Positions 32,134 to 35,505 of a stretch of DNA of 37,630 nt are shown here, in pieces (the first letter of the stretch is position 1; the number at the start of each line of letters is the position of its first letter). A model generated the notes under the pieces. It saw nothing but the letters and a program-made list of their open reading frames with translations, ran no database searches and was not told the origin of the DNA. Source of the DNA: Gammaproteobacteria bacterium. Lineage in GTDB: Bacteria > Pseudomonadota > Gammaproteobacteria > Eutrophobiales > Eutrophobiaceae. The stretch covers positions 1 through 37,630 of the forward strand of contig CANKCB010000020.1 of the NCBI GenBank assembly GCA_947480335.1, read 5' to 3'. The position numbers and the translations under genes were made by a program.

Positions 32134-32155
32134 TATTGCAGTAATTACCACAAGA

Positions 32156-32190
32156 ATCCGCCCGGGTGTTACATCCGGGCGGATTTTTTT
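32156..32190 (+). terminator. strong rho-independent terminator after receptor 3
   Basis: A perfect ten-base-pair stem ATCCGCCCGG / CCGGGCGGAT with a 9-base loop is followed by seven T. It ends the second module's transcript and separates it from the receptor 4 operon. Confidence 0.93.
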
Positions 32191-32316
32191 ATGTAATCCC
32201 GTGAAGTGATTTATTTTGTTCAACGAAATGCAAAGGTGTTTTTCAAATAGTTTGCACAATGTCCTTCTGAATATACTGTACATTAGAAATAATATTTAAC
32301 ATCAGAAGGTAGTCAA

Positions 32317-34467
32317 TTGAAACCACGAACATTATCAAAAATCTACACACTGAATATCACCCTGTTACAGCTGGTTGTTTTTCTTTTAATACCTGCTACT
32401 GATGTTTTCGCCCAAAATTATCAGGAAGAAACAGTTTCACTTCTTACTCAGGAGATTATTGAACAGGACCTTGTAAGTTATCCATCCAGCTATTTTGACA
32501 AGGTTCAGCCTGTAACAGCGCTGGATATGATAAAACAAGTCCCGGGTTTCCAGCTGGATGACAATATCAATAATGTTCGTGGATTTGCCAGCACATCAGG
32601 AAATGTATTTATCGACGACAGACGACCCAGCACCAAACGGGATAACTTGTCATCTATTCTGACCAGGATCCCCGCGACCAGTGTAGACCGTATTGAATTA
32701 ATCAGAGGTAAAGTTCGAAGCATTGATCTAAGAGGTCAGTCAGCTGTACTCAATATAGTATTAAAAGAAGGCATGCCAGCAGCTATCCAGTGGGAATCTT
32801 CCGTCCGGCAGACATTCGGACATGGGCCGCTTAAACCTGAAGGGAGAATTTCATTATCTGACGACTGGCGTGGAATTGATTACAACGTTGGTATAGATGC
32901 TCGAAGATCATCAGTGGGGCGAACAGGTTTTGATAATATCGAGGACGGTAATCGCAACCTCACTGAGATTCGAACTGACGATAAGGAAAACCGGAATACG
33001 GTTTTAAAAGCCAATCTGAATCTGGCAGGATGGTTCGGAGAAAATTATTTGCAGGCAAGCACTATTTATAACTATGAAAAGCAGCATACCTATACCAATT
33101 CAGATCGTGTCAAGTCGTTAACCGGGATTCAACGCAATGTTTTTTTTAACGATGTTGAAGAGGAACCCACTATTGAAGCGGGTCTGGATGTAGAACGTAT
33201 ACTGATTGACCGTCTGACTGGCAAAGCTATTGTGTTGTACGTTAAGGGCAATCGGAATATTTATAACAGCCAGCTGGATAAAAACTCATCAGGGGTACAA
33301 ACACTTAATCGAATTGCCACAGGCGAACTTGATTCCAGCGAAAATATTGCGCGTCTGGAAATGGACTGGTCCGGTTTTACTGACCATCTGCTGCAGTTTA
33401 ATGCTGAACGTGCCGCAAACAACTTGAATAGCACACTGGCACAAACCGATGATACAGGTTTTGGGGCAGTAATCATTGATGTACCAGGAGCTAATGGTCG
33501 GGTTGAGGAAATTCGCTGGGATACACTTTTAAAGGATACCTGGACACTCAATCAACTTGAACTGGATTATGGTATCGGTACCGAAGCATCGACAATCTCC
33601 CAGACCGGTGATGCAGAACTTGATCGCAGTTTTTTCTTTGTGAAACCCTCGGCTGTAGCAACCTGGTTGTGGTTAAATCGCGACCAGAGCCGTCTACGAA
33701 TTGTGCGTGAGATAGCCCAGTTGAATCTGGAAGATTTTGTCAGTGCAACCGAGTTTCTGGACAATGATATTGCATTGGGTAATCCCAACATCAAGCCGGA
33801 TGCCACCTGGAAACTTGAAATTAGTCATGAGATACGATTTGGGTCAAAAGGTCTGGTCAAGCTGACAGCATTTCATCACTGGATAACAGATGTGCTGGAT
33901 TTGCTACCCATTACAACGACATTTGAGGCGCCTGGGAACATAGGAGATGGTCGTCGATGGGGTCTGATTTGGGAAAGCAGTGTTCCACTCGACTGGATAT
34001 ACCTTAAAGCAGCCAAACTGGATGCAAAAATTCGTTGGCAGGATTCATCTGTGATTGATCCGGTTACTGGGAAAAACAGGGTATTGTCGATTGCGACTAT
34101 ATCTGCTGGCCCCATCATGTTTGATGTTGAAAATAAATATGCTTATGAGGTCAATTTTCGTCAGGATTTTCAGGCACAGAAATTCGCCTGGGGCTGGAAA
34201 GTAATGGAAAGGGCAGAACAATACCAGTTCAAGGTGAATGAATTACTCATTTATGATGAAAATACAGATATTCATGCTTACATTGAGACATCGCGCTGGT
34301 TTGGTATCAAAATGATACTGGGGACAGAAAATATCTTCAATTTTCATGAAGATAGGCTACGTATTATTTATAGCGGGGAACGAGAACGCTCACCGGTCAA
34401 CACAATAGAAACCCGAGATCGTACACGTGGTTTTCGACTTAATTTTACTGTCAGTGGAAGCTTCTAG
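32317..34467 (+). CDS. TonB-dependent receptor 4, plug plus barrel, different subfamily
   Basis: 716 residues, starting at TTG with AGAAGG 7 bases upstream. A signal peptide (LVVFLLIPATDVFAQ) precedes a plug-like domain (ALDMIKQVPGFQLDD, NVRGFASTSGNVFIDD, IPATSVDRIELIRG, LNIVLKEG). A barrel of about 500 residues follows, ending FTVSGSF. The IVVTAQRR box of receptors 1-3 is absent, so this belongs to another receptor group (OMP_b-brl_3-like). The DUF4159 gene follows 9 bases later, and the pair is separated from the upstream module by a strong terminator. The ligand is unknown. Confidence 0.85.
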   Translation: MKPRTLSKIYTLNITLLQLVVFLLIPATDVFAQNYQEETVSLLTQEIIEQDLVSYPSSYFDKVQPVTALDMIKQVPGFQLDDNINNVRGFASTSGNVFIDDRRPSTKRDNLSSILTRIPATSVDRIELIRGKVRSIDLRGQSAVLNIVLKEGMPAAIQWESSVRQTFGHGPLKPEGRISLSDDWRGIDYNVGIDARRSSVGRTGFDNIEDGNRNLTEIRTDDKENRNTVLKANLNLAGWFGENYLQASTIYNYEKQHTYTNSDRVKSLTGIQRNVFFNDVEEEPTIEAGLDVERILIDRLTGKAIVLYVKGNRNIYNSQLDKNSSGVQTLNRIATGELDSSENIARLEMDWSGFTDHLLQFNAERAANNLNSTLAQTDDTGFGAVIIDVPGANGRVEEIRWDTLLKDTWTLNQLELDYGIGTEASTISQTGDAELDRSFFFVKPSAVATWLWLNRDQSRLRIVREIAQLNLEDFVSATEFLDNDIALGNPNIKPDATWKLEISHEIRFGSKGLVKLTAFHHWITDVLDLLPITTTFEAPGNIGDGRRWGLIWESSVPLDWIYLKAAKLDAKIRWQDSSVIDPVTGKNRVLSIATISAGPIMFDVENKYAYEVNFRQDFQAQKFAWGWKVMERAEQYQFKVNELLIYDENTDIHAYIETSRWFGIKMILGTENIFNFHEDRLRIIYSGERERSPVNTIETRDRTRGFRLNFTVSGSF

Positions 34468-34476
34468 TTATTCATC

Positions 34477-35229
34477 ATGAAAATTACGATTTTTTCATGC
34501 TTGTCAGCACTGTTTTGTCTGCTCATATCATATAGTAGTCAGGCACAAAATCTGCCAAATAGTGAGGCCGAATTACATTTCGCTCGCCTTGCTTTCGGGG
34601 CGTATGGACGTACATTCAGTAATGATCCCGATGAGCCTTGGTTAAGGGATTGGCCAGATGCTGAAGACCATTTTTTAACTGGATTACAAAGGCTTACTGT
34701 TATACACAACGGTGAAAGCAGGCAAACCAGCCTGTTAGATGATTCAATTTTTGAATATCCAGTTGTGTACGCAGTTAAAGTGGGCTATTGGGATCTGAGT
34801 CAGCCGGAAATTGACCGTTTGCGTGAATATCTGGTTAGAGGTGGTTTCCTGATTGTAGATGACTTTCATGGTCCTGATGAATGGGTGCAATTCATGTCAT
34901 CTATGGAAAGGGTTTTTCCGGGCCGATCATTTATAGAAATTCCGGATAATCATGAAATCTTTCATGTACATTTTGATCTGGATGACCGCAGCCAGATTCC
35001 AGGTCGCCAAGCTGTCTACAATGGCGTTACCTGGGAAAATCCACTGGGGGTGCCAGAGTACTGGCGTGGCATTTATGATGATGATGGCAGATTGGTAGTA
35101 GCAATCAATTTTAACATGGATATGGGTGATGCCTGGGAACATGCTGACGATGCCTTTTACCCTGAACCATTAACAGCATTGGCATACCGTGTCGGGATAA
35201 ATTACATAATCTATGCCATGACACACTAA
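34477..35229 (+). CDS. exported DUF4159-domain protein
   Basis: 250 residues with a signal peptide (LFCLLISYSSQAQ). The mature part shows the DUF4159 pattern: ELHFARLAFG, YPVVYAVKVGYWDLSQPEIDRLREYLVRGGFLIVDDFHG, RVFPGRSFIEIP, and a final region rich in acidic and aromatic residues. The domain resembles the glutamine-amidotransferase-like fold used for ligand binding. It starts 9 bases after receptor 4, so it is probably its periplasmic partner. No catalytic triad was identified. Confidence 0.8.
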   Translation: MKITIFSCLSALFCLLISYSSQAQNLPNSEAELHFARLAFGAYGRTFSNDPDEPWLRDWPDAEDHFLTGLQRLTVIHNGESRQTSLLDDSIFEYPVVYAVKVGYWDLSQPEIDRLREYLVRGGFLIVDDFHGPDEWVQFMSSMERVFPGRSFIEIPDNHEIFHVHFDLDDRSQIPGRQAVYNGVTWENPLGVPEYWRGIYDDDGRLVVAINFNMDMGDAWEHADDAFYPEPLTALAYRVGINYIIYAMTH

Positions 35230-35322: not shown

Positions 35323-35505
35323 ATGAAAAATACAATCCTATTATCGCTATTATTAATCCTGACATCTGCTTGTAGCAGTCCAGAGTCTGAAACCAAAATA
35401 TTTTCAGAACAAAAGCAGGCATTAGACAGCGCTAAGGAAGTGGAAGGCAAAATTCTTGATGCGGCCAAAGAACAAGAACAGGCCATAAAACAAAGTACGG
35501 AATAA
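35323..35505 (+). CDS. small lipoprotein (60 aa)
   Basis: A 60-residue protein with the lipobox LTSAC after a hydrophobic signal, then a charged region (KQALDSAKEVEGKILDAAKE) that should form an amphipathic helix. AAAGGG lies 9 bases upstream of the ATG. It may be a small envelope lipoprotein or linker; the function is unknown. It follows the DUF4159 gene by 93 bases. Confidence 0.7.
   Translation: MKNTILLSLLLILTSACSSPESETKIFSEQKQALDSAKEVEGKILDAAKEQEQAIKQSTE

Follow-up and report, generated by a model that had tools for sequence, protein, structure and literature searches.

In SusC/SusD-type pairs, a TonB-type receptor is encoded together with an exported partner. The locus described here is similar in joining a receptor gene to the gene of an exported partner. 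It differs in its receptor (receptor 4, R4), which has no match to the SusC/RagA model TIGR04056 at E 0.1; moreover, the domain of the partner, DUF4159, is not known as a SusD family. TonB-dependent receptors in general (PF07715, PF00593) share with R4 a Plug domain above the cut-off and a C-terminal phenylalanine, whereas R4 stands apart by its missing barrel match, by lack of an evident TonB box and by paralog expansion at the level of genus. Stand-alone DUF4159 proteins are known from MoxR/DUF58 loci. The protein found in our window (the whole analysed stretch of 37,630 nucleotides) has the same domain, length class and signal-like start, but its gene is flanked by those of a receptor and a lipoprotein. 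At the level of fold, DUF4159 weakly resembles class I glutamine amidotransferases and ThuA-like proteins (HisH 4gud and ThuA-like 1t0b, Z 8.6 to 9.2) and differs by having no cysteine in the mature protein. In a search of the paper library, DUF4159, PF13709, 4I66 and Hoch_4089 were found in no paper, and TonB-dependent receptor, MoxR and DUF58 never appeared together. A MoxR/VWA locus is the subject of one paper (PMC5700661).

Features of the locus are collected in Table 1. Both open reading frames of the pair were confirmed with the 9-base spacer (by ORF coordinates) that the sequence-only reading had given. Its view that both proteins are exported agrees with a hydrophobic signal-like N-terminal segment, which can be discerned by eye in each of them. 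The third gene of the unit, encoding the lipoprotein, had been overlooked. R4 starts with TTG, and AGAAGG lies immediately 5´ of this codon. The strong terminator claimed upstream of the pair is real by folding (-26.8 kcal/mol, z -6.8; none of 200 shuffled sequences folded as well); consensus terminator scan listed none, this one included, and disagrees with folding in this respect.

Table 1. Positions of genes and signals of the R4 unit and of related receptor arrays
Feature	Position	Strand	Remark
Receptor 4 (R4), TonB-dependent-receptor-like outer-membrane protein, 716 aa	32317..34467	+	Plug 25.1 bits
Exported DUF4159 protein (putative), 250 aa	34477..35229	+	PF13709 140.7 bits; model pLDDT 90.8
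Putative lipoprotein, small (60 aa), with a signal that ends in SAC-S	35323..35505	+	ortholog directly 3´ of DUF4159 in G001/G002/G004 and 3´ of its tail in G003
Intrinsic terminator, receptor 3 / receptor 4 interval	32150..32192	+	hairpin fold, then T run
Candidate promoter/operator: bipartite element with blocks of 20 and 14 nt around a 16-nt spacer	32240..32289	+	identical blocks before G003 ortholog
R4-family receptor arrays	G000:C4:59642-72400 (L059); G004:C18 (L060); G002:C1 (L071)		

The bipartite element upstream of R4 may serve as promoter or operator of the unit. Besides the two blocks, which are identical in G003, its core TTTGCACAA also precedes the R4 orthologs of G001 and G004. 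The core is absent before the G002 ortholog and missing from 250 bp upstream of 44 other receptors scanned. When up to 3 mismatches were allowed, the element pattern was found at three places in five genomes: exactly before R4 of G000 and G003, and with 3 mismatches in G002, where it is unlinked to R4. Reversed control also gave one match. We rejected the idea of a regulon because three places in five genomes are too few.

The genus sample consists of five genomes, G000 to G004, of which G000 is the window genome. In four of the five, the R4-DUF4159 pair is intact, at the same site and in the same order and strand. In G003, one contig breaks off within the R4 ortholog, after the first 169 aa, and a second contig opens with the last seven codons of the DUF4159 gene followed by the lipoprotein; we infer that these two contigs adjoin, so that the split copy fits the unit. 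The same order and strand, the short gaps in three genomes (18 bases in G001, 18 in G004 and 57 in G002, each time with the best R4 match directly 5´ of DUF4159) and the split G003 copy argue that the pairing is more than chance. The lipoprotein (60-79 aa) lies 3´ of DUF4159 in all five genomes. In the window as well as in G002, G003 and G004, the trio is preceded by pgsA and tRNA-Gly/Cys(/Leu) genes. The upstream flank of R4 is occupied by a 24-kb module in the window, by other genes in G001 and by an extra receptor in G003, and downstream only G002 and G003 have an AsmA-like gene. The trio is constant while both flanks vary between genomes.

In phylogenetic trees, the paired receptors group in a single clade (100/99; five rows among 48, including a partial one that covers 23% of columns), and so do the paired DUF4159s (100/99; four rows among 99), whose nearest row is a solitary gene, L092 (94/66, branch not starred). 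The simplest reading would be that the pairing arose once, in the ancestor of the genus. Judged from the G001 and G004 sequences, all three genes are under purifying selection (dN/dS about 0.10 for R4, 0.09 for DUF4159 and 0.18 for the lipoprotein). Residues specific to paired proteins number 12 in DUF4159 and 24 in R4, as counted in four sequences only. Gene order and conservation of the trio and clade structure of the pair can be read directly from the genomes. The pair is a real, isolated and conserved unit, and to this extent the sequence-only reading is supported. Because the pairing occurs in other genomes of the genus, a pair confined to this one genome, the outcome that would have spoken against the sequence-only reading, is not what we see.

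The score of the DUF4159 protein (Table 1) is over the cut-off of 25.9 bits, and its match covers positions 4-202 of the 202-position profile. The model, derived from 61 sequences, matches the DUF4159-type structure of Hoch_4089 (PDB 4i66) with Z 22.3 and rmsd 2.2 Å over 185 aligned residues. GATase-class folds come next at Z 8 to 9.4, with common background reaching 7-8; the HisH match, for example, has Z 9.2 and 3.4 Å over 147 residues against this same background. Cysteines of the DUF4159 protein are situated only in the signal-like segment and its mature part has none; further, no cysteine is invariant in the 61 relatives. Glutaminase chemistry therefore appears unlikely. The 61 sequences share 34 invariant columns, including D128, D129, N213, D215, W220 and H222; these may mark a conserved pocket. 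A divergent DUF4159 paralog was noticed near a small gene (~168 aa, DUF1993-like by eye) elsewhere in the window genome (L063:8448-9215) and, again close to a gene of this kind, in another genus (G019, L069:3852-4811).

The identity of R4 as a receptor is supported less directly. Its Plug score (PF07715) is barely above the cut-off of 23.9 bits, and Pfam gave no TonB barrel match for R4 itself at E 0.1. Its relatives favour the assignment: Plug is present in 25 of 41 (at E 0.01), PF00593 barrel in 16 and OMP_b-brl_3 in 11. Compared with PDB, the profile of these 41 relatives finds the colicin I receptor plug at E 3.5e-6 and BtuB at 0.0035. No clear conserved TonB box could be seen by eye 5´ of the plug in the family alignment. 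AlphaFold model of R4, made from a 4-sequence alignment, has mean pLDDT 28.8 and holds no meaningful structure. The family comprises at least 17 copies in the window genome and at least 19 matches in each of the other four genomes of the genus; among 58 genomes, six have an R4 match: all five genus genomes and G048, where the match is weak.

We suggest that the genes of R4, DUF4159 and the lipoprotein constitute a single envelope operon specific to the genus, in which DUF4159 is periplasmic and acts on the R4 ligand. We give this reading nearly an even chance. The three genes would be co-transcribed and their products would be in contact, be it physical or functional. R4 would probably carry one specific ligand across the outer membrane. 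DUF4159, with its GATase/ThuA-like fold devoid of cysteine nucleophile, would be exported to the periplasm, where it might bind the ligand of R4, process it or hand it on. The small lipoprotein would be an accessory in the envelope. The operon reading draws on short gaps, on the conserved trio between variable flanks, on the two clades, on dN/dS values and on the unit's own terminator and upstream element. Against it stands the fact that other R4-family receptors do without DUF4159: in the five genus genomes, DUF4159 was found at 18 places, and only 4 of these adjoin an R4-family receptor. Further, DUF4159 is elsewhere commonly accompanied by MoxR/DUF58, and relatives of the lipoprotein occur without DUF4159. 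The lipoprotein has no Pfam match; with a limit of E 0.001, 23 of 40 genomes contain relatives of it, in other genera mostly away from DUF4159 among the loci listed.

The main competing explanation is that the genes are inherited neighbours. DUF4159 would function in MoxR/DUF58 (Bat-like) systems, where its relatives also seem to belong, and merely share promoter or location with R4. Since synteny extends in part to the wider region, the adjacency could indeed be inherited order, and we regard this as a serious possibility, albeit rather on the doubtful side. Surroundings of DUF4159 outside the genus are of importance here. A scan of named genomes gave 458 confirmed stretches, of which the best 80 were examined. 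They contained 87 DUF4159 places, 3 of them being R4 pairs, all of this genus. A VWA-GATase gene stands next door at 32 places and a Bat/MoxR-type gene in the flank at 18, so that a Bat-type gene accompanies 50 of the 87; 34 places have neither. At the 84 non-pair places (sequence extends for 4 kb in both directions at 57 of them and for 2.5 kb upstream at 66), no receptor was found within 4 kb.

In the phylum sample, DUF4159 is present in 106 of 398 genomes. The 105 places in other genomes divide into 93 frames of at least 578 aa and 12 short stand-alone frames (229-299 aa). All 12 short ones have MoxR at a distance of 29-1578 bases and DUF58 beyond it. Together with 8 class-level places (G387:C306 and G292:C14 were left out) they make up 20 further stand-alone loci. 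Among the class-level loci, a VWA-GATase gene is adjacent in 3, MoxR/DUF58 lies 6-7 kb away in 1, and 4 have neither; in 15 of the 20, MoxR and DUF58 lie on the fetched stretch. The exported stand-alone DUF4159 is, as far as gene neighbourhoods tell, a companion of MoxR/DUF58 in many lineages. The 20 loci contained no plug detectable by a profile built from the window genome (20 plugs and 4 of the window), with R4 search run alongside. This profile is imperfect, marking only 2 plugs in L059, a stretch with six R4-family receptors, and weak receptors could therefore be missed. Plasmid records yielded 2 matches to DUF4159 and 2 to the receptor, all of them weak. Two relatives (L089, L090, L097, L108) bear the title Klebsiella pneumoniae in public records, apparently by mislabelling.

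Contrary to what had been supposed, a stand-alone exported DUF4159 is not unusual. Many genomes have it, commonly beside MoxR/DUF58 or VWA-GATase, and the window genome alone has four DUF4159 genes. It is the receptor neighbour that is out of the ordinary. The proposed survey of neighbourhoods thus had a divided outcome: the pairing recurs within the genus, and a search for R4-DUF4159 pairs beyond it found none in the best 80 of 458 stretches and the 20 further loci. Since it was not found there, the pairing looks like a local uptake unit.

Within the genus, evidence on inherited neighbours is mixed as well. Each genome has 5-10 MoxR matches, and in G002 the distance between the pair and the MoxR and DUF58 genes (L057:16948-18867) is about 7 kb, yet the matching MoxR locus of G000 and G001 sits on another contig. 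We therefore rejected proximity of MoxR as a rule; G003 is fragmented at this place. No DUF4159 was seen beside the matching MoxR-DUF58 locus of G000 and G001 (L247; L248). Among the 20 window ORFs scanned, MoxR, DUF58 and VWA-GATase are all absent, the contig ending at 37630. Two further points weaken the notion that DUF4159 still belongs to a Bat-like system: the Bat locus of the window genome has its own DUF4159 (L061), and R4-DUF4159 order outlasts changes on both flanks.

A bolder version of the operon reading would see in DUF4159 proteins a periplasmic receptor partner of a type not described before, with a GATase-like fold lacking its cysteine, recruited from MoxR/DUF58 loci for one TonB-type receptor and making up a new three-part uptake system with R4 and the lipoprotein; we deem this improbable. 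Equally improbable is that DUF4159 and lipoprotein aid outer-membrane biogenesis or stability (e.g. R4 insertion or quality control) instead of handling a ligand, for although the lipoprotein accompanies DUF4159 in all five genus genomes and AsmA- or TamAB-like genes (named by eye) are nearby in some, these nearby genes differ from genome to genome and the remaining 16 R4-family receptors of the window genome have no DUF4159 or lipoprotein partner.

The unit is of interest mainly because DUF4159 is a domain without known function, and a receptor-linked copy, apparently a redeployed paralog, gives a handle on it. Phenotypes of receptors are testable, whereas those of MoxR/DUF58 are difficult to interpret. 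A true partnership would suggest that DUF4159 proteins act in the periplasm.

Several observations concern the wider region and the receptor family. The interval from tRNA-Leu(UAA) to R4 (window 7809-32317) looks insertion-prone. Window 8868-32133 contains two copies of a module that encodes a PSD-domain protein (DUF1592 etc.), a DUF1552 protein, an ankyrin protein and a TonB receptor, and a similar set is present in G001 (L245:5567-13704). A DUF1552/PSD-like pair also lies beside a receptor array in G000 (L059:99-3883). In these arrays (Table 1), six or seven R4-family receptors follow each other head to tail, nearly gapless, and their paralogs have orthologs across the genus according to the tree. 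The L060 and L071 arrays adjoin genes recognised by eye as zinc-uptake-like.
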